This document shows, piece after piece, positions 6,376-54,686 of a stretch of 64,000 nt of DNA. The stretch lies in the NCBI RefSeq assembly GCF_020382885.2, contig NC_058499.1:9595872-9659871 (forward strand). Direction: 5' to 3'. The notes beneath the pieces were generated by a model. It had not been told where the DNA came from. It worked only from the letters and a program-made list of their open reading frames with translations, and made no database searches. Each line of letters starts with the position of its first letter. The stretch's first letter is position 1. Source of the stretch: Scatophagus argus (taxonomy: Eukaryota; Chordata; Actinopteri; Scatophagidae). Made by a program: the position numbers and the translations under genes.

Positions 6376-7745
6376 GCCCTGAATGCAACACCTCCACTGA
6401 CACCACAACATGACCACCTGACCCCTAACCACTGAAGATCCACAGAACAGAGCAGGAGACAGTACAGAACATCTGCATCCTCATCTTTATGTGACAGTGT
6501 TTACTATTTGTTTGTCTCTTCCACTAAAGTTTCAACAGTGGGATTCTTTAAGTCCATCAGTCAGTTATTTTTAATAGTGAAATTGGAGTAATAATTCACA
6601 TGATCACAGTTATTTGGAAGTCATGGTTGGTAGTAACCTCAGGGCCAAAGGACTGTGCTTTTAACCTTCTGTGTGATGTTTCAGAATAACACGTATGTCT
6701 TAAAATGATGACTGGGCTCCGTGATGACTTGAAAACTTCAGTGGCTGAAACATTGCGTCTGAATGAAACGAACGCTAGGTATGATATGAATCTCGACAGA
6801 TTAGTCTTTGTCCATCAGGTCTGCATGCTAAACAGTGTCAGTGAAGCTTACTTTAATCCCACAAAGATATGAAAGTTCATCTCCATTTCTCGTTTAGCAT
6901 CTGAAAGCATTTCATTGTTATTATGAACTACAGTTTTTGGTTCTTCACTGTCTGTAACTACTGACTGAAGCAATACCTAACGAAATGTAAAGAATAACAC
7001 AAACTCTTGCACGTCTTTTAGGAGTACCAAATTAATTGTTCCTCATCTGCCTGCTCGCCCTTACCGCAGAAGTAAAAAGAGGTTTACATCCCTGTTTGTC
7101 TGGAGGACCGACATTATCAGCCTTTGACTGCAGCAGTTACACATATTTCTTACACATATGAGGAGAGTATTCTGTCTTAAATGTAGCTATGAAGATCATC
7201 TCACTCTGCGATTCACTTGTCTGTTCATCTTCATGATGGGGAGCCTTCAAGTTTCCCCCTCGTGTTTTGCAGAGGCGGCCTTCTGTGTGCTATGATTATC
7301 TATGCACTCGTGTATGGTTTGAGGTGGATTTTAGTGGTCTTTGATTATTATATTTTTGTATCAATGCAGTGTTAAAAACATATTTATTGCATTTATATTC
7401 TTACAAAAGATCTTTTTTATTAATTTCTCTCGAAGAAGAAAAGTCATTCACATATTGTTTGACTATGTGGTGCCAGGTTTGACTCAATATGTTTTATTTA
7501 AAACAAGGCAGAAGGGAAAGTCACCTTTTGTTTGTTTGTTTTTTTTGCATGTGTTCTGATTTAAAGCCCAGCTTGAAGCTGACTATTTGTCTAAATTTCA
7601 ACTTTAACCCAACGCCTTATGTTCTAATGCCAAGGTGGCGTGTTTGATTTGTGCCTGTGGTACAGAGAAAACCATTTCTTAGTTTCTTAGAGTGCCTGTC
7701 ACTACATTCTGCTAACTTAGGAATAAATTAAACACATGTAAATTC
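6376..7745 (+). other. ap4e1: ap4e1 3' untranslated region
   Basis: No coding feature follows the TGA at 6373-6375 and no repeat is obvious. The first good polyadenylation signal is AATAAA at 7722-7727, which would give a 3'UTR of about 1.37 kb. End inferred only from that signal. Confidence 0.6.
7722..7727 (+). terminator. Polyadenylation signal of ap4e1
   Basis: Canonical AATAAA on the + strand, the first after the ap4e1 stop in a plain AT-rich UTR. The next gene is on the other strand, so it can serve only ap4e1. Confidence 0.6.
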
Positions 7746-12848: not shown

Positions 12849-12861
12849 GGTCAGACTGACC
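12849..12861. promoter_or_regulatory. Perfect palindromic estrogen response element
   Basis: GGTCAGACTGACC matches the consensus GGTCAnnnTGACC at all ten positions. It lies about 350 bp upstream of the proposed cyp19a1b start. From memory, the zebrafish cyp19a1b promoter has a functional ERE at a similar distance, through which estrogen induces the gene in radial glia. The site also sits about 0.9 kb upstream of gldn on the other strand. Confidence 0.8.
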
Positions 12862-13787: not shown

Positions 13788-16700
13788 ATGAAGGAGAGGA
13801 GTGGAGTTTTCCCTGTGTGGAAAGTGCTGCTGGTGGGGATGTGTGCACTGCTGCTCCTGAGCTCAGCAGGTTTGGTGTTCCTGCTGCTGCGACAGAGAGA
13901 GCTGACAGAGGAGCTGCTCAGGTTGGATGCCCAGATGCAACTGCTGTCACAGAGCTGCAGGCTGCAGGCAGGAGTCCTGTCCATGGACCCTGCAGATGCT
14001 GGAGAGCTGAAGAAGCTCCACCGCAGCAGAAGAAACCAGGAGGAACCCACACAAAGCCAAGATGAGAAGGATATGTTAATGCTGATGACATACTCCATGG
14101 TTCCTGTAAGATACCAAAATTCTGCGAATGTGGCGTCTTTTTGGGACATTTTGACTATTGCAGACTTTGATTGTGAATTTCCCACTGTGTTATTATGAGT
14201 GAGAACAGGGGAGCAATCAACCACTCTTTGCTGTCACTTTTAATAGAGTTTCCTCTCTTTTCCCTTTTGAGATTAGAAGCATGTCTGTGCAATGCAAAGA
14301 ATCCAAGAGCATGTTGCAGAGATTAGGAAGAAGTCTGGTTTTCCATTGAGTGTTTCCTGGATAAATACTTTGAGCAGTATGACTGTTGCCTGCTCCTCCC
14401 TTAAGTGCAAACACATCTGCTGGGAACCGGCGTTTCTTTAGAGGGTGTATTTTTTGACAAAGAGGACAGCACATGATCACTGATACACAAGTACTTTACC
14501 AAATTAAAGTCTACTTTTACAATTGACCTGATCAGTCAGTTGTTACCAATAATGATTAAGGTTGCAACTAAGAACTATTCTTATTATCAGTTAGTCTTCT
14601 ATTATTCCTGGATTAATTGTTTAAGTAAGAGATGCCCAACACATGTTCCCTGAGCACAAACTGCTTGTTCTGTCTCAGCCTAAACCCAGAAATATTCAGT
14701 TTACTGTAAGAAGCTGGAACAAGTGAATCTTTGTTATAAAAACAATTACATGACGGAATAATTGGTTATCATAATTGCTATCAGTTAACATTGTCTACAC
14801 CCCTGGTCAATTAATTGATTAATCTTTTCAGCTCTAATTATTGGGAATAATGTGAAAATAAAACAGCTGCATTTGTGAAAAAGCCTCACAAGAAAAGCAA
14901 AAGTGTTTGCATCCAAGTGATTTTGAACCCAAAATGTTTAACTGCTTTTTTCTGTTTTTCTGCATTTCAGGTCAAAGCCTTCATCGATCTGTGTAACAGC
15001 TCCAAAGGAGCTTGTTTAACAGGTGCTCTTCATAGCTATTTACCCTTCCAGTACTCCATTTCGTATGGTTTCTGGTGCTTCCTTTGTATTTGATTTGTGT
15101 AAAATATTCCCTTATTTTTTTCCAGGCCCACCTGGACCACCAGGTAAGAACAGGCACTTTAGGTATTTGCATTGCATTGCATTAGGTATTTAAACTAAGC
15201 TAAATTTGTTACTACAACCTGAGTCCTTCTGTGTGTTAGGTTTGCCTGGTAGAGCTGGTTCACCAGGACCACAGGGTGTGCCCGGGCCTGAGGGGAGACG
15301 AGGAAAAAGAGGTGAGAGATTTGCTCTTTTAATTTCTCACAGTAGATTAACAGATTAACAGAAGTCAGTCACAAGCTTCAGACAGTCTTCCATTGTTGAG
15401 CTGTGGTTACATAACATGAGAAACCCACTCGCTGTCTACGAGAGACTTTGTCTGCAGCTGCCACATTAGAAATGTGTGGGAGATCAATTTGACTGGAAAA
15501 TGTTAACTGGTTTGTATCTTTCCCTCCTTCACTGGGACGATTCAGTAACTCATGATGGCATCGCAGATCAGCTCAGTTGTATTTAAGACTGAGAGGGAAA
15601 AAAATCTAAGATGCCCTGTTGTCATTCCTACAGTTAACCCTTGGACCTCCTGCTTTCATTTATATATTTACCGTATTTTCATTTTCAACTTTGAACTAAT
15701 GTGGCCACCTGTCAATGCTCAGGACCCCCAGGTGAAAAGGGAGACCCGGGACCCAAAGGAGACCCAGGACCTCTCCGAGTGAAAGGCGAACCCTACAGTG
15801 ATATTCTCATTGAGGGTGAGAGATGACAACATCTTTAAACCAGATGTGAATAATATGATTAAGAGAGAGGAAACAGCACTCCGAATGCCTGCAATATTTG
15901 CTCAAGAGTTGTTTTTTTTTTCTTTTCAGGACAAATATGAAATGTTTAAACTAGTGGTGAGGTTCTAAGAATAATAAAACGTCCACTGTGTTTGGTTGAA
16001 CACTTTCCTGTTGTGGAAACACAAACTAACCCCCTGTTATTTGTGCTAAAATCTGTTATTTTTCCCAACTTAAAGTTTCCCTGAAAAGTTACAGAACAAT
16101 ATTGAACAATATTCACCTCAAGAATTCTCATAGGAGCTCACATTTACGCTTTTCTGTTTTTCTTTAATTGTTGCTGTTGTGAAGAGCCTGTCGGTACTGT
16201 TCATTAGGTCGCATTTACATGTCTGACTCGTATCTACTGCGTGTGTATATTTGAAGGTCCTCCTGGTCCAAGGGGTCCACCTGGTCCATCTGGTCCACCT
16301 GGTCCACCTGGTCCACCTTGTCCTGCTTGTTATTCTAATGATGTGACAAACAAAACCTTCAAAGAAAACCTGCATCCAACCAATGTGTTGACAGGTGGGA
16401 ACCTTTCTATAGAATCAGAAACAGACTGTAGGTTGGAAAATCTTGATTTATTGGTTTCAAAGTCTGATTTAGTTTAGCTTAGTTTAGTAACTCTAAAAAC
16501 ACTGAAATCAGCCAACAAAACTTCCATTATGTGTTGGCTTTGGATAGGTATTGTAGCTATGGCCTTGATCGCAAAAAAACATTAAGTACTACCACCTTTG
16601 CTGTTAACATTACAGCACTTCATTAGCTGATTGTAGGTAGGGTCAGAGTGGACTCTTCATGTGCAGAATCACAGAACCACATTGTGCTCTCATATTCAGA

Positions 16701-19700
16701 TTCATCTCCTGTTGTGACCTTCAATGAAACCAACACAGAAAACATCAGCAGCTCCACAGTTAACGAGGCTGGTAGGAAAAACATTCACATATGTCTAAGT
16801 GTTGTACCGAAGTACAACTTTGAGGTACTTTACTTTGGTATTTTCTTTCCATGCCACTTTATACTTGTGCTTGACTACTTTTTATTTACTACAATTACTG
16901 GACAGCTTTATTTACTGGTTACTTTGTCACTATTGATTGTTGGACAGCATTTCTCACTACTTTCAATTGATCCCTCAATGGATAAAATAATTAGTTGCAG
17001 TCCTATACAAAATAGGTAAAAAGTAGCTCCACCTCAACCAGTGGCAACAGTAATATGCTGCCAACATATCAATACATGATTAATAATAATAATAATAATA
17101 ATGTAACAACAAATACGTGATATTTGTACCAACTTCTCTATCTGAAACCTTCCTTTGCACAGAATCACCAACACCACATCCAGCCGACGATAGCAGAGAT
17201 GAGTTGAACGTTACTGACTCTATTAAAGTTGTAGACACAAGCATGGTCCCCGGTAAGCGACTATTTTGAGTGTCAGGAAGACACCATGATATCAACACAG
17301 AGAATGTAACAGATGCACCGATCTGACTGTGTTAAATCTCATGTCTCTCCACAGAATCACCAACACCAGGTCCAACTGACGACAGCAGAGATACACTGAA
17401 TGTTACTGACTCTGTTAAAGCTTTGGGCAGAAGTATGGAAACTGGTAAGCAACTGCTTTGAGTGTTAGAAAGATGTCACTGTCAGTCGTAATTTTGATCG
17501 TGTAAAAAACATGTTTAACGTTTTTCGTTTCTTTTCTTTTCTTTTCCAGAGTCAGTATTGGATACCAATGATACCAACACAGAGGATGTTACAGAGGCAC
17601 TGATTAAATTAAAAGGTATTAACTGTGTTAATAGGAGCTGCCCTACAACATCATTATCTTTTGTAAATGTTACCTGATGTTTCACTCTACGGCCCGTCTT
17701 TCTCCAGACCAGATTCAAAGCATTGACACCTTTGAAGGCAGGGAAAACTTTACCAGCACTATGAGGAATGGTAAGAAAATGTGCATATACTGCATGTGGT
17801 ACCAGTATTGACCAGTTTACACGTATGTGTAGTTAAATCAAGGCACAAGTATACAATCCAAACAATCATTATGAATGGCAGGATGACTTAATTGACAGAC
17901 ATCTTTGCTAATTATGTTAATCCAACAGCTTATTATATATATACATTAGCTTGGAATGTGAATGTATGACTGCATGGTTCAGCATAAAAATTTATGATTA
18001 TCCAAATTCTATTTTATTTTTTACAGACTTCAACACGTGGACTGAAACCAGCAGAGATGGTTTTACAGAGGCACCAGTTAACTTATTTACAGGTAAAAGA
18101 TTCAGCAACTCATTTATGAAATGTTTGTACCAACATATAAAATTTTAGCTTCATACTTTCACCTTTCATTTCAAACACCAAGTCCAGGTTATGAACTCCT
18201 ACATGCTTTTAATATTGACTCTGAGAAACTTCGAGACACAGATGAGGAATCTGGCAAACAAACTTTTTTAGTACCTTTTTAATCCTATAGCCTCTATTAA
18301 TATTAGACTGGAATGTAAAAATATGATCCATTTTAATGCTAAAAGTGATTTAATTTAACACCCTTTGGGTATTAACTCCTCAAGGGTAAGATTTTGGCTA
18401 TAAAAGTGAAAAAATGCACGAAAAGGACACAGGATAGATAAATTAAATCATCGGTATACATGTTAAATCATGTGTCATCTCACTTCAAATTTCAAGAGCT
18501 TCATGTTAAAACAAACTGAAACAATCGGTGGTGGAAGGATTAAAATCTTTCAAAAGTATACAGTACAACCTTGTGAAAATACGGTTAAATTAAAAGTGCT
18601 GCATTAAAAGTAAAAGTACTTGTTCTGCATTAAAATGTCTCCTGGAAGTGACATTATCATATGTGATATTATTACATTGTTAGTCCCGATACATCAATGT
18701 GTAAGTCAGCATTTTACTGTAGCAGCTGCTCAAGTTTTAACTACTTTATATACAGTTTGGGATTTTTTTAGGAGGCATTTTAATCCAGTGATTCCCAATC
18801 TAAGAGTCGGCTTCCCTTCAAAGGGTCATGTGATGAATCTGAGGGGTAGAGACATGATTATTGTGAGGAAGTAAAGAAGTTTTAATTTCTTTGACCTTTT
18901 TCTCTAATCTTTATTTTTTGTGAAATGTCAAATAATTTAAGTAGTTACTGAAATGAAGTCTGGAAAGGAAATTACCCATTTATGTTTTTTTGTGTTGGAA
19001 CAGTAACCAATAATTATAGCTGCCAGATAATGCAGTCAAACTGTAGTAGAAAGTTCAACATGTCCCTCTTAAATGTGGCATATACTCTGCTGAATGCAGG
19101 ATGCATAGAAGACACAGTATTTTGATTATGTGAAACAACATTTCAATATCTTTTGTTTTCTAGGGTCGATATCATTTCATAAAGACCTCAGTCACGACAC
19201 CCTGAATGACTCGAGCACAGACAACATTACAGAGGGACCAATTAAATTACTAACAGGTGGGAAATATTGTGTTTTATATTATGAATAAACTTTAAAAACT
19301 TTAAAGCATCATATATAATGGCTGATTTCATTTTACAGCAGTACACACTGCAGACCAAAACAATGATACCTTCAATATCAGTGGGACCATTACTGATGCA
19401 CTCTTGAAGAGCGGTAAGAGATCTGTTATTAGACAGTGTTTTATCTCTTCATTCTTCTTTTCAATTCTCTCCCAGCAACCTCATTATGCTCTTTTAAAGA
19501 TTTCATTTATCTTGAGGGTAGACAATACATTACTAGTGTTATAATTGATATTTACCTTGCACAAAAAACAAAACAAAATTCAGTACTCAAAAATAAAGAA
19601 CCATCAACATTCATATACAGTTTAAATGAGGATTTATAATAGCTGTGGACTACTTATAATGTATTTCATAAACATTTTGTTATTTATTCTTTTTATTTAT

Positions 19701-22139
19701 TTTATTAAGTGAGAAAATGTGAATTAGCCTATTTTATGATTATTTCTTTAGATTCATATTCACTCCAGAACAACAAGCGAAATCTGACAAGTAACGAGAA
19801 ATGGACCAAAGCTGGTGAGCAAACTTTGTAAATTTGACCTTCAAAAGAAAACTGTACTCTGTAATGATTTTCATGATATGCTGAATAAAGTTGTGAATTA
19901 AGTTGTGATGATATTTCATTGCTGTACCATCTCTTTGTGTTAAATCTCATCTCTCTCCACAGAATCACCAACACCACGTCCAGCTGACGACAGCAGAGAT
20001 ACACTGAATGTTACTGACTCTGTTAAAGCTTTGGGCAGAAGTATGGAAACTGGTAAGCAACTGCTTTGAGTGTTAGAAAGATGTCACTGTCAGACTTAAT
20101 TCTGACCATGTAAGAAACGTGGTTATCCTGATACCTTTTTCTTTTCTTTTCTTTTCTTTTCCAGAGTCAGTATCGGCTCAGTACAGCTACAACACTGCGA
20201 ATGACACCAACACAGAGAATGTTACAGAGGCACCGATAAAATTATTAACAGGTATTAACTGTGTTTTGAAATAAAGGTAAAAGTCTCATGTGTCCCAGCT
20301 GGGGGTGCTGCCCTACAACACTATTATTATTTGTAAAAGTAACATGATGTTTCACTCTACAGCCTCTCTTTCTCCAGACCCGATTCAAAAGAACGACACC
20401 GTCAGCGACAGCGGAAACATTACTGACATACCCATGAAAAGTGGTAAGACAAACGCTGTGTAAATATGTCAGATTGTAAGTTTAATTAAGTCAAGATATC
20501 AATATATAAAATATAGCTGGGAGACTGTAAAGACAAACCTTATCTTTTTCTAGAGTCAGTATCATCTCATCAAGATGACAGCTCTGACACCTTGAACGTT
20601 ACCGGACGAGGAAATGCTACAAAGGCATCAACTGAACTTTTAACATGTAGGAAACACACGGTTTTGTATGTTAAACTAACAATTTCCTAAAAACATTCAA
20701 TTTTGTCTTTTGTATAATTTATGATGCTACACAATAACACCACCGGTGTCTTATATGTATGTATTTATATATGTTTGCTTTTATTTTACAGCCTCACTTT
20801 CTGGAGACCAGGCTGAAAAGAGGGATACCTTCAATAACAGTGGAAACATTATGGATACACCAATGAAAATGGGTATCAAAAAAAAAAAAAGAATTTTGAA
20901 TTGTTTTATCATTAAAATTTGTTTATTTATTTTCTTTCAAATCTTTAAACACTTAAAGACACATTTTATTCCATGGCTCAATGAAATACACCAGTAAGAA
21001 GATTTAAAGTCACCGACCGAATCTTTTTCTTCTCGTTTGTCTCTCTTTAGACTCTTCTTATCCCAACCAGATCAATTCGACAACCAATGAGAGATGGACA
21101 AGAACTGGTTATTGCATTTTGCTGAAATCTAATTACAAGTCTATTTATCTATCTGACTTATTCAAATGCTGAAGTACATATCTTCATTCATTTAGAGTGC
21201 AGAATGAAAACTATTAAATGTTTGGAGAAGACCACCAAAATGGAGAGCACTTTTGGAGCCTGGATGTCCGATGCATTTGCGTTGGATGACGACCGATACT
21301 GGCTGGCTGAGCATTTTTCAGGTGATTTTCACACGTTAACCAAACATTGTGGAGATTTGGGAGTTATTGTGGATTTAATACAGAAACATTTCCTCTCCAG
21401 GTCGACTTTTGGCAGTGCACAGGAACATTTCGACATTTCAAAATAAAAGCAACCAAGTTATAGACCTCAGGAAGTTCTATCAGGGCTGTGGTCATGTCGT
21501 TTACAAGACGTCATTGTACTTTCACAACGCAGGGACAAACAGACTTATAAAGTAAGTGATAAACATGTATGAGACTTTTTTTGGCTTTGTTAACTTATAT
21601 ATAGTGACACTTTTGCCAGGTAACTTGTGACATTTATATTCAGCTTCTGAACTTACCCGTGATGGATATTTTACAGGTTTGACCTGAACACCAGGAGAAC
21701 AAAGACTCTGATCATGCCAAACAGCAGATATCACAACCTCACTTATCTGTTCTGCAACTCCAAGACATACTTCAAGTTTGCTGTGGATGAAAATGGACTG
21801 TGGGTCATTTTTGCAGCAGACACAGATGACAAAACGATGGTTGCGAAGCTTAACCCAGACACGTTCTCTGTGGAGTCACTCATTAACACTCACTACCCTA
21901 CGACTAAAGCAGGAAATGCTTTTATTGTGTGCGGCATGCTATATTTCACAGATGACAAAGACAGAAGAGTTACATATGCCTTTGATTTAGAGAAAGAGAG
22001 TCCACAGGATGCAAGTTTCGATTTAAGGCCAGCAAATGGCATCTTGGCTATGCTGTCATATTATCCCAACAAAAAACTTTTGTACATGTGGGACAACAGC
22101 AGCGTGAAAACCTGTAAAGTTAAACTCAAACTGACTTAA
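13788..22139 (+). CDS. gldn: Gliomedin with greatly expanded linker (24 exons)
   Basis: Type II membrane/secreted collagen-olfactomedin protein that clusters sodium channels at nodes of Ranvier in mammals. Exons: 13788-14105, 14971-15022, 15126-15143, 15240-15311, 15723-15815, 16257-16394, 16667-16771, 17163-17252, 17355-17444, 17550-17615, 17708-17770, 18027-18092, 19164-19256, 19339-19413, 19752-19814, 19963-20052, 20165-20251, 20363-20443, 20554-20646, 20792-20872, 21051-21107, 21196-21321, 21401-21551, 21677-22139; 876 residues against about 551 in human. Order: signal anchor (11-34), furin-like RSRR (79-82), conserved MLMLMTYSMVP, collagen Gly-X-Y (about 123-215), repetitive linker (231-630), olfactomedin domain (631-876). 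An in-frame ATG at 13713 could add 25 residues. Collagen plus olfactomedin order makes the call firm; the linker is unusual. Confidence 0.9.
14555..14840 (+). repeat. Non-autonomous repeat, 'GCTGCAACTAATGATTA' family
   Basis: In gldn intron 1. It begins GGTTGCAACTAAGAACTATTC and ends TTAATTGATTAATCTTTTCAG with AGCTCTAATTA, enclosing CCCAGAAATATTCAGTTTACTGTAAGA-like text: the usual landmarks of a repeat common in fish introns. Related to 4386-4556. Probably a non-autonomous DNA element; ends are approximate. Confidence 0.6.
16805..16935 (+). repeat. Fragment of the CAGTGGTGGAA (hAT-like) repeat
   Basis: In gldn intron 7. GTACAACTTTGAGGTACTTTAC followed by 'CCACTTTATACTT' matches the 5' part of a repeat seen more fully at 50596-51065. 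Fragment only; no termini visible. Confidence 0.5.
17082..17102 (+). repeat. (TAA)n microsatellite
   Basis: Seven TAA units in gldn intron 7, about 60 bp before the next exon. Simple repeat with no sign of function. Confidence 0.9.
17163..21107 (+). repeat. gldn: Duplicated small-exon array in gldn
   Basis: Fourteen consecutive exons of 57-93 bp, all with phase 1 at both ends, fall into four recurring types. A (ESPTP...TLNVTDS): 17163, 17355, 19963. B (ESV/GSI...TEAPIKLLT): 17550, 18027, 19164, 20165, 20554. C (D-Q/P-I-Q...TFNISGxI): 17708, 19339, 20363, 20792. D (DSxS...NExWTKA): 19752, 21051. The order A-B-C-(B)-B-C-D then A-B-C-B-C-D shows duplication of a whole multi-exon block. The preceding exon at 16667 also opens with ESQ and may be an older member. 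Any exon can be skipped or added without changing the frame. Confidence 0.85.
18531..18750 (+). repeat. Fragment of the CAGTGGTGGAA (hAT-like) repeat
   Basis: In gldn intron 12. It opens CGGTGGTGGAAGG, like the terminus of the family, and continues with AAAAGTACTTGTTCTGCATTAAAATG and 'GTAAGTCAGCATTTTACTGTAGCAGCTG', typical internal text of this fish repeat. Diverged; right end unclear. Confidence 0.5.
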
Positions 22140-43402: not shown

Positions 43403-45158
43403 TCAGTGAGGATACTGACGTAAGTAGAGGCTCCTCAGCACGGTCTCACTGAACTGGTAGGTTAGTTTCTTCTTGACCTTTCTGATCTCTCCAGTTTTAC
43501 CATAGTTCCTCAGAGCTCGAGCCATCTTTTGATAGGTCATTTTTTTGCGGTTTCCTTTTTGAATTCCCCAGTGGCTGGCCAGAACTTCTTTGTGTTTTGT
43601 GGAGAACTGGAAGATGCCCTTGTCCTGGTCCACCCACCAGATACTGTCACTCATGTCACCATTTCTTAGCAAGTCCAGAAGGAACTGGTACAAGCGGATT
43701 TTCTTCTTATTGGCTGAATCGGAAAATATGAGACACGTTCAAGAGATTTTATCAGGTATCAATCAGTTTCTCGAGGCTTTTGGTACCTTTGAGGTCTGTG
43801 GAAAACTTGCACTGAAGGTACTCACTAGTGTCTTTCCTAAAGGAGGAGTGGTTGTGGTCTTCAAAGTCATCCTCCCCATCTGATACCTGAAGCAGGGGAC
43901 TCGTTCCTCTTTGTTCCTCTTCAGAGTAGTATTGTCCAGGCGAGGCAGAGGGTTGGTACTGGTAGCACTGGGATGAGGTGTAATATGGGATCTTTAGGAG
44001 AAATTAAAAGCATGCCACAGTTTAGGTTTACAAAAGGAGTGACAGAGCTCTGTTGTTTTTTGTTACTCACTGCTTGACATTTTCATTTAAACACTGTCAT
44101 TGTCCTAAAAGAGGAAGTAACTCCACCAAAATAGAATTCAATGATCAGCAAGACTGTGTGGTGTAGATGACATTTCAGCAAAAATATCTTTGACTGTCCA
44201 AATCATGCATGGCACTGCGCTGTGATAAAACCAATTTTTCTCTTTATTTCAGATGATCAGAATCCATGAAATCTTCTTTAGAGTAGTTCCTGAAAATAGA
44301 TTATGTTGTTATTATGGGCGCTAGTACATTCATTTCTACTCAAGAGTTTACTTGTGGTGACACAGCGAGAGCGCCGAGTGCTGGGTCCAGCTGAAGCGCC
44401 AGAGGTTCGCTGCTGTAGCGGTAGGGTATCAGCTGTTGAGGAGACACAGACTGGAGCTCTGTGAGGTGATTCACTGGTGAATTATCAAAGTCTGTTGGCT
44501 GGATGCGCTCAGAGTGGAAGGGCCATCTGTGGTCTGAAAAGTGACAGAGGGTAAGGCACACACTTGTGTAGTGATCCTATCCTATTTTTAACGGTTAAAT
44601 CCAGTCCTCCCACCTTCATAAATCTCTCCCACATTAGGGAGGTAGGGGTACAGCTCTGCGGGTGGTCGATAATCCTCATGTTCATTAGGAACGATTTCCT
44701 CTGAGGCCTTATGTGGGGGGAAAATTAGATTTTGTCATAAAGAAAGTAAAAGCTGGAGTCCATTTGTCAAATATGATCATTAGGTGTTATACAAGAGTTA
44801 GTTTTATCTATTTATTTCACTTTATTTTTACTGGTTTTAACAGGACACAATGAGTGGGAAAGGAATAAAGTACCAGAACAGACCAGCTTATACATATGTC
44901 CTCAGTGAGCACAAACAAAACCCAGAAACACAAGTTTTCTCAGATATGCATCTTAATCAATAAATGAAATTCTAAGTCCCACCTTGGTCACTAGAAAACC
45001 GTTTTTAGAAACACAAAGAACAGACAGCATAACAAACACAAAATCATCCTCTCAACATAACAAACTCTGATCATAAACTAGTCCCCTCATCTGTCCTGTC
45101 AAAGTTGAGAGAATAAAGCAGAAACACTTACAGATGATATGACATATCCGTCCATCAT
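43403..45158 (-). CDS. spi1a: PU.1-family ETS transcription factor
   Basis: DNA-binding regulator of myeloid development. Exons (minus): 45158-45132, 44707-44614, 44533-44352, 43991-43826, 43713-43403; 259 residues (human SPI1 about 270). The N-terminal part is like PU.1 ([28 protein letters not shown], then [12 protein letters not shown]), the centre is acidic with a PEST-like [15 protein letters not shown], and the ETS domain (about 160-247) carries [15 protein letters not shown], the recognition helix [19 protein letters not shown] and KKLTYQF. All five exons match the SPI1 pattern. Substitutions such as [14 protein letters not shown] suggest the teleost spi1a copy rather than spi1b, and linkage to cyp19a1b agrees with what I recall of zebrafish; the paralogue label is less sure than the family. 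Confidence 0.85.
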
Positions 45159-53430: not shown

Positions 53431-54060
53431 CTATGAGCCAACATTAAGATACTCTGTCTTCAGGCGGCTCAGTCTGGTGCCGTGGCTGCGGATGATAAGA
53501 GACAGAAGCTCGTGTTTATCTTTAAGTCCCACAGAGATGTCCGTAGTGGACCTCAGAGCGTCCCTGATGTCACTCACTTGCTTCATTACGTAGCCGTTCA
53601 GCTGTTGCTCCTCTCTCAGCTCAGTCTCTTGACTCTGTTTAAACTTCACTTCCAGCTCCTGCAGAGACTTGTCCACGCTTGAGAACGCCTCGCCGATCTG
53701 GGAGACCTCTCGCTGGAGGAACTTGCCGTAGGTGTCCTCTCCGTCCAGGTCGTGCGCCACAGTCCGGCCGATGCCCTCCAGTAGCCGCGCTGCGTCCTCC
53801 GCCTGCAGCTTGGTTATGATGAAGTCGTCCCGCACCACGGAGTCCCTCTCTTCAGAGGCCCCGCATGGATACACATCGGAGAACTTAAACAGCATCTGGC
53901 ACTCCTCCGGGTCTTCAGTCTCCTCGTAATCCCCGTCCGGAACAAAGAAGTGATGGAAGGTGCCGTTGGATATCTCCGGTTGGAGCGGCCCGTCGTAGAC
54001 AGCTGAGCAAAACGGCAAAGTTGTGACCAGGATGAGCAGCGCTGTGACGGGGTCCATCAT
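53431..54060 (-). CDS. fibin: Fin bud initiation factor homologue, single exon
   Basis: Secreted factor reported to act upstream of tbx5 in pectoral fin bud initiation. One uninterrupted exon of 209 residues (human FIBIN 211). Seen: signal peptide MDPVTALLILVTTLPFCSA; then YHHFFVPDGDY-type HHFFVPDGDYEETEDPEECQ, RDSVVRDDFIITKLQAEDAAR, a glutamine/glutamate-rich helix KFKQSQETELREEQQLNGY that looks coiled-coil, and the strongly conserved end DISVGLKDKHELLSLIIRSHGTRLSRLK. The open frame continues upstream to an ATG at 54129, but that longer start puts 23 charged residues before the signal peptide, so I chose 54060. Confidence 0.92.
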   Translation of the reverse strand: MMDPVTALLILVTTLPFCSAVYDGPLQPEISNGTFHHFFVPDGDYEETEDPEECQMLFKFSDVYPCGASEERDSVVRDDFIITKLQAEDAARLLEGIGRTVAHDLDGEDTYGKFLQREVSQIGEAFSSVDKSLQELEVKFKQSQETELREEQQLNGYVMKQVSDIRDALRSTTDISVGLKDKHELLSLIIRSHGTRLSRLKTEYLNVGS

Positions 54061-54686
54061 GCACCTCCTCTCTCTCTCTTTGGCGAACAGCATCTGCACT
54101 GGCAGCCGGATCCAGCGCACAGTTTTCATCCCTGCTCATGTTACACAGTCCCCCGTCACCTAAAAGGCGCAGGCCACTTGTTTCAAATCAGGAGGGCCCC
54201 TGGTGGCCCCCGCTTCAACCCCGCAGTGTCAGCGCGGTCAGGAAGCTGCTCTCCAGCAAAAGTCACACGATACGTGGGTCTATAATCAGTCAGATGACTT
54301 TGAAGCAGGATTTAGATAAGTTTGCCAACTTTTTCATTCATTTACATTTAAAAAGAGAACTTTTTTTTTTGCAAATGCTTTTTGTGCATTTTACCACAAC
54401 AGTATTTAAGAGTTACCCTGTGGTTCTTGTTTAAACTGCTGCCAATAGTTTTTATTATTATTATTTTAGTATTATTATTTTCTTTTTAGCCTGCATAACT
54501 CATTCAGTTGTATGGCCCTGACTGTGATATTACAACTAACTGTATAAATAAGTGAACTGAAAATCCCGTATTAAAAAAATCACAGTGCCAAATTCACATT
54601 ATCAAAAGGAAAGGAAATCAGACCAGTTATTTTAACTTCTAACAAAACTTGCAAGAAAATAGAACAAATGGTTTGCTGTTTCTTCG

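Follow-up and report, generated by a model that had tools for sequence, protein, structure and literature searches.

Gene organization of the locus

The window analyzed here is a 64,000-nucleotide stretch of the Scatophagus argus genome (NC_058499.1, 9,595,872–9,659,871). A gliomedin gene occupies positions 13788–22139 on the plus strand. A minus-strand aromatase gene, matching human CYP19A1 at 4.7e-181, lies to its left; it is arranged head to head with gliomedin, and we take it to resemble brain-type aromatase in its sequence features. AP4E1 is also situated on the left, where segments of the gene matched AP-4 epsilon (5.8e-25) and the AP4 epsilon appendage platform (PF14807, 1e-15) and two other segments gave no Pfam match. 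The gene on the right is clpX (3.4e-55). An Ets-domain gene (43403–43738) and a gene for the fin bud initiation factor, Fibin (53431–54135), were also observed, both on the minus strand.

The section of PMC9141715 on neighbouring genes describes cyp19a1a as adjoined by gldn and dmxl2 and cyp19a1b as adjoined by ap4e1; that section names no gldn on the cyp19a1b side. AP4E1 is described in the available text of PMC11580623 as positionally conserved with CYP19B. The same text names CLPX in the other of its two sex-linked regions, and for this reason we did not draw on it for CLPX as a neighbour of CYP19B. Read together with these two sources, the position of AP4E1 beside the aromatase gene indicates that, of the two copies left by the teleost genome duplication, the window gliomedin is most probably the one belonging to the cyp19a1b side.

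The gliomedin gene was assembled in silico from 24 exons, giving a CDS of 2598 bp with a single terminal stop codon and a protein of 865 residues. The model is free of internal stop codons, and its introns are bounded by AG and GT throughout; the exon joins, and with them the splicing as drawn, are predicted. Pfam identified a collagen region (PF01391, 1e-11) and an olfactomedin (OLF) domain (PF02191, 9.4e-65) in the protein and gave no match between them. The closest solved structures were the gliomedins 4xav, 4d77, and 5yby (5.1e-64 to 1.7e-62), and the next family in this search was noelin (7.7e-30), which bears out the gliomedin identity given in the original prediction.

Exon 1 (13788–14105) contains the start codon, a short cytoplasmic end, a hydrophobic stretch that was read from the sequence by eye without a predictor, and a juxtamembrane R-S-R-R motif, also recognized by eye, which is presumably used by furin. 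Exon 2 (14971–15022, 52 bp, phase 0-1) is followed by the four collagen exons c1 (15126–15143, 18 bp), c2 (15240–15311, 72 bp), c3 (15723–15815, 93 bp), and c4 (16257–16394, 138 bp), the last of which has a CPAC motif and the beginning of the linker at its end. The OLF domain is encoded by o1 (21196–21321, 126 bp), o2 (21401–21551, 151 bp, phase 1-2), and o3 (21677–22139), which carries the stop codon. All of these exons are on the plus strand. Exons c1–c4, all 15 stalk exons described below, and o1 are every one in phase 1-1, so that units can enter or leave this part of the gene frame-neutrally. The CPAC motif lies just ahead of the stalk and might form an interchain knot.

A second gliomedin gene in the same genome

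A second aromatase gene was found in the same genome (570.7 Mb, 48 contigs) at C1:22622950–22625551 on the minus strand, and a sister gliomedin gene lies head to head with it at about C1:22629470–22633425. The sister gene consists of ten exons. We set its start codon at position 6470 of the sister locus (L010), an alternative ATG being present at position 6419, and the encoded protein then has 575 residues. The order and phases of the exons outside the linker are the same in both copies. Exon 2, c1, o1, and o2 have identical lengths in the two genes (52, 18, 126, and 151 bp), whereas exon 1, c2, c3, and c4 are 495, 99, 102, and 135 bp in the sister gene versus 318, 72, 93, and 138 bp in the window gene. 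The linker between c4 and o1 is a single exon of 84 bp in the sister gene, in phase 1-1 and with no sequon. As judged from the two assembled genes, the 15-exon array is a property of one gliomedin copy and not of both, and any comparison of "gldn" with other fish consequently needs the correct copy. The original prediction had recognized the gene as gliomedin, but overlooked that it is the copy on the AP4E1/cyp19a1b side and that it has a sister with one linker exon.

Several minor features of the sister gene and its relatives were noted. The c3 exon of the sister gene (L010 8561–8662) apparently has a GC donor, and this copy has no cysteine at the position matching the CPAC of the window copy. 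WD-repeat sequence lies downstream of the sister gene on the minus strand; the search of solved structures gave no dmxl2 name to it, and we assume that it is dmxl2. A third gliomedin was not recognized in this genome among the matches listed. Many olfactomedin-domain matches were found on both strands over about 61 kb at C7:20905438–20966811, apparently representing a tandem gene family. Pattern matches to the last OLF exon included no relatives among 4 in viral contigs and none among 25 in genome contigs, as expected for collections without fish.

Stalk exons and sequons

The linker separating c4 from o1 is made up of fifteen exons of 57–93 bp, each flanked by AG and GT, which together encode a stalk of 389 residues. 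The original prediction of 15 exons in phase 1-1 at this place agrees with the model in all 15 cases. Its shortest exon (57 bp), the end of its span (16667..21107), and the existence of a long linker were likewise confirmed; its longest exon of 105 bp, its start, and its count of 400 residues were replaced by 93 bp, position 16700, and 389 residues, respectively. A 105-bp form of exon s9, with the acceptor before 19710, was set aside, because the related exon s15 has a later acceptor, which supports a start at 19752.

We grouped the stalk exons into four module types, A to D, from our own alignment, and profiles of each group recovered all its members. Type A comprises s2 (17163–17252, one sequon), s3 (17355–17444), and s10 (19963–20052, one sequon). 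Type B comprises s1 (16700–16771, B-like, two sequons), s4 (17550–17615, one sequon), s6 (18027–18092, no sequon), s7 (19164–19256, two sequons), s11 (20165–20251, two sequons), and s13 (20554–20646, two sequons). Type C comprises s5 (17708–17770, one sequon), s8 (19339–19413, two sequons), s12 (20363–20443, two sequons, with an in-frame alternative acceptor before 20378), and s14 (20792–20872, one sequon, with the donor gtatca). Type D comprises s9 (19752–19814, one sequon) and s15 (21051–21107, one sequon, with the donor gttatt). All are on the plus strand.

The stalk contains 20 N-x-S/T sequons, 16 of which are N-x-T, and at least one is present in 14 of the 15 exons, the exception being s6; about 20 sequons, with one or two in nearly every exon, had been predicted. 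The stalk is acidic (66 D+E versus 31 K+R) and contains no cysteine. From its N-x-S/T motifs, it is probably N-glycosylated. In 20,000 shuffles of the whole stalk, the number of sequons averaged 9.5 and reached a maximum of 19 versus the 20 observed, and shuffling of residues within exons reached 20 sequons in 7 of 20,000 cases. The stalk exons are related copies, so the figures obtained with one exon per module type, fractions of 0.027 and 0.014 for two choices of exons, are fairer, and weaker.

We scanned the 4.75 kb block for exon-like phase 1-1 intervals with one scoring rule and obtained 14 on the plus strand and 4 on the other strand; the same scan of one 6.7 kb control stretch gave 2 and 2 on the two strands. 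At the threshold of a separate exon search, 12 of the 15 stalk exons passed with the boundaries used and s12 passed with the neighbouring acceptor, and s8 and s14 failed. Exons s8 and s14 and the boundary used for s12 are absent from the list of that search and rest on homology.

Duplication, decay, and conversion of modules

The stalk modules were multiplied by block duplication, introns included. Positions 17314–17779 and 19923–20452 are 76% identical over 531 columns, and two further repeated blocks, likewise with their introns, pair 20151–20453 with 20539–20882 (60%) and 19312–19416 with 20766–20875 (70%). The order A-B-C occurs twice (s3–s5 and s10–s12), as does the order B-C-D (s7–s9 and s13–s15).

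Two additional modules appear decayed. A dead type B module is present on the plus strand in the s2–s3 intron (17285–17322, nhmmer E 7.4e-5) and has a stop codon in the B frame. A probable dead type A module lies on the same strand in the s6–s7 intron (18172–18252, nhmmer E 0.005); its acceptor place has no AG and its donor place has GC, and one frame is still open. Dispersed repeats occupy parts of the s1–s2 intron (approximately 16797–17108) and the s6–s7 intron (approximately 18590–18877).

Exons s3 and s10 are identical at 88 of 90 bases, and both differences are replacements, with zero silent change. The identity extends beyond the exon: 17376–17485 aligns with the s10 region without a single difference over 110 columns, a run of identity reached in 0 of 20,000 permutations. 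The near-identity of s3 and s10 is best read as recent gene conversion rather than selection.

No stalk-exon DNA was found elsewhere in the genome among the 43 matches listed (from 63 candidates, of which 40 were scored, with frequent words ignored), and s11–s15 as protein were not found elsewhere among the 34 matches listed. We considered whether the modules were founded by the sister gene's only linker exon. None of the 15 stalk exons resembled it significantly more than shuffles did (s15 came closest, at 0.083 of shuffles); descent of the modules from that exon is therefore not supported.

Divergence of the OLF domain

The OLF domains of the window and sister copies are 55% identical (131/237). 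The identity to 4xav was 57% (127/224) for the sister copy and 45% (99/219) for the window copy, with bit scores of 306.6 and 219.1, respectively. We took the OLF domain of 4xav for that of mouse gliomedin, since a length of 271 residues agrees with the construct 279–549 given in the available text of PMC4488277. In a relative rate comparison with this domain as the outgroup, 37 sites differed in the window copy only versus 9 in the sister copy only (chi-square 17.0), which indicates that the array belongs to the faster-evolving copy. DENGLW and GCG, listed as invariant OLF motifs in the corresponding passage of PMC4206993, are both present in the window domain.

In both fish copies, a cysteine is present where the OLF region begins and another in the FI-x-C-G stretch (21196–21321 and 21677–22139 in the window); the latter is common to noelin and absent from the three solved gliomedins. 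The window OLF domain has further cysteines of its own that are absent from the sister copy.

Constraint on the stalk and its interpretation

With moderate confidence, we regard the array as an N-glycosylated spacer, specific to this copy and under weak constraint, that was multiplied in blocks on the cyp19a1b side and extends the reach from the collagen region to the OLF domain. After the two copies parted, which is the probable timing of the expansion, the linker position, held by one symmetric exon in the sister gene, would have been filled by multiplying A-B-C and B-C-D blocks. Such growth would be easy because c1 through o1 are all in phase 1-1 and the gain or loss of a unit keeps the frame. 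The predicted product is a type II membrane protein or a shed collagen trimer, in which three OLF heads would be carried on long, acidic, cysteine-free spacers of 389 residues, giving each trimer as many as 60 sequons. At 0.35 nm per residue, the upper length of the stalk would be approximately 130 nm. Most likely, the stalk would act through its length and through shielding, so that the OLF head could reach farther.

The amino acid sequence of the stalk would be weakly constrained, with the frame and the sequons better kept. The pooled pN/pS of 25 module pairs (s3–s10 included), whose comparisons share copies, was 0.70, with 0.456 silent and 0.318 replacement changes per site, and replacement change equalled or exceeded silent change in several pairs (s1–s13, s4–s6, s6–s11, and s6–s13). 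When the modules were compared in each direction, asparagine was conserved in 46 of 69 cases inside sequons versus 16 of 47 outside, and serine or threonine in 65 of 69 cases at the third sequon position versus 143 of 248 elsewhere; these comparisons are not independent, and they omit the s3–s10 pair because of the gene conversion. The values fit a spacer in which the frame and the sequons may matter more than the exact sequence, and they are compatible with drift too.

Neutral growth is a possible, though rather unlikely, alternative to the spacer reading: a tolerant linker would have been enlarged by unequal recombination and gene conversion, the sequons would derive from a sequon-bearing founder module, and the length would have no function. 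The pooled ratio, which is 1 or more for some pairs, is in line with such growth, as are the dead and the probable dead module, the conversion tract, the dispersed repeats in the two introns, and the faster evolution of the OLF domain in this copy. It accounts less readily for 389 codons without a stop, for exon lengths that are all multiples of 3, and for sequon residues that are better kept than like residues outside sequons. When neutral change of 5, 10, 15, and 20% was simulated (4000 runs), all stalk frames stayed open in 16, 3, 0.6, and 0.1% of the runs, respectively; for copies changed by only 5% or 10%, frames open by luck would thus not be rare.

It is improbable, in our judgment, that most of the stalk exons are skipped, with a short protein as the main product and the array used rarely or in isoforms of graded length. 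Skipping would be permitted by the symmetry of all the stalk exons and by the forward exon junctions, 135 of 136 of which are free of stop codons, and the donors of s14 and s15 look weak to us; the open frames and the kept sequons, however, suggest that the array is translated. The one junction that forms a stop (a TAG codon) is that of s13 to o1. The frame-neutral skipping foreseen in the original prediction holds for the symmetry of the exons but not for this junction, and tuning of the stalk length by skipping would be a possibility.

An array already present in the ancestor of the two copies, with later loss in the sister gene and in mammals, is very doubtful. Two separate losses would be needed. 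The sister gene has one linker exon, and profile scanning of its locus (L010 and L011, 20 kb) revealed no module trace at E <0.08, the lowest E being 0.084. The spacer of mouse gliomedin is short, with an OLF construct of residues 279–549 in the available text of PMC4488277. Decay of the window gene, which the faster OLF evolution and the OLF cysteines absent from the sister copy might suggest, is scarcely credible in view of 865 open codons, AG and GT at the model introns, an OLF match of 9.4e-65 that includes DENGLW and GCG, and pooled module pairs in which silent change outweighs replacement change.

Comparison with known proteins

We know of no such exon array in mammalian gliomedin. Symmetric exon arrays whose units change protein length in frame are familiar from the variant exons of CD44 and the repeats of tenascin, which encode known domains or regulated variants; the window stalk differs from these in consisting of sequon-rich modules without a Pfam match. 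The window array is a real, copy-specific expansion of symmetric linker exons in a known kind of protein.

The window copy resembles mammalian gliomedin (GLDN) in having collagen repeats and a C-terminal OLF domain, which in the window copy follow a putative membrane helix, and in lying in reverse orientation beside an aromatase gene; the first GLDN exon is located within the pig CYP19 locus, according to the relevant passage of PMC8067493. Unlike the window copy, mouse gliomedin has a short spacer and a numbering that ends near 549 in PMC4488277, as far as its available text goes, which fits a protein of about the size of 551 residues that the original prediction gives for human gliomedin. 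The predicted expansion relative to a short spacer is supported by this comparison. Mammalian gliomedin is described in the available parts of PMC3810605 and PMC4206993 as being shed by furin and BMP-1, oligomerizing, and joining the matrix; it binds neurofascin and NrCAM and serves the clustering of nodal sodium channels. Colmedins such as UNC-122 have the collagen and OLF architecture in common with the window gliomedin (PMC7848082 and PMC4206993, in the parts available). UNC-122 is an invertebrate protein, and the likeness is one of domain architecture.

A published account of such an array or of a fish gliomedin pair was not found by title or start of abstract among the matches listed, in a literature mostly outside subscription journals. 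The two genes form a matched pair within one genome, most likely derived from one duplication, with one versus fifteen linker exons. The pair allows one to ask whether the distance from collagen to OLF and its glycosylation matter for the working of glial ligands, and in what way symmetric exons multiply and decay.

Region between the aromatase and gliomedin genes

An exact palindromic GGTCAnnnTGACC, presumably an oestrogen response element, is located at 12849–12861 (plus strand) between the two start codons, approximately 1.25 kb from that of aromatase and 0.93 kb from that of gliomedin. By our estimate, the exact element is expected about 0.06 times in the window. With at most one mismatch, the element matched 3 times in the window, an ordinary number (22 of 100 shuffles), and had no match in 10 kb at the sister locus. 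In a highly speculative proposal, the window gliomedin, sharing a divergent promoter region of 2.2 kb and the oestrogen element with brain aromatase, would have turned into a different molecule after the duplication. It would be a collagen-olfactomedin ligand of radial glia, possibly responsive to oestrogen, and the number of glycosylated stalk exons included would determine how far it reaches. According to the available text of PMC10449831, developing female gonads of tuna show a rise in a gene named gldn.
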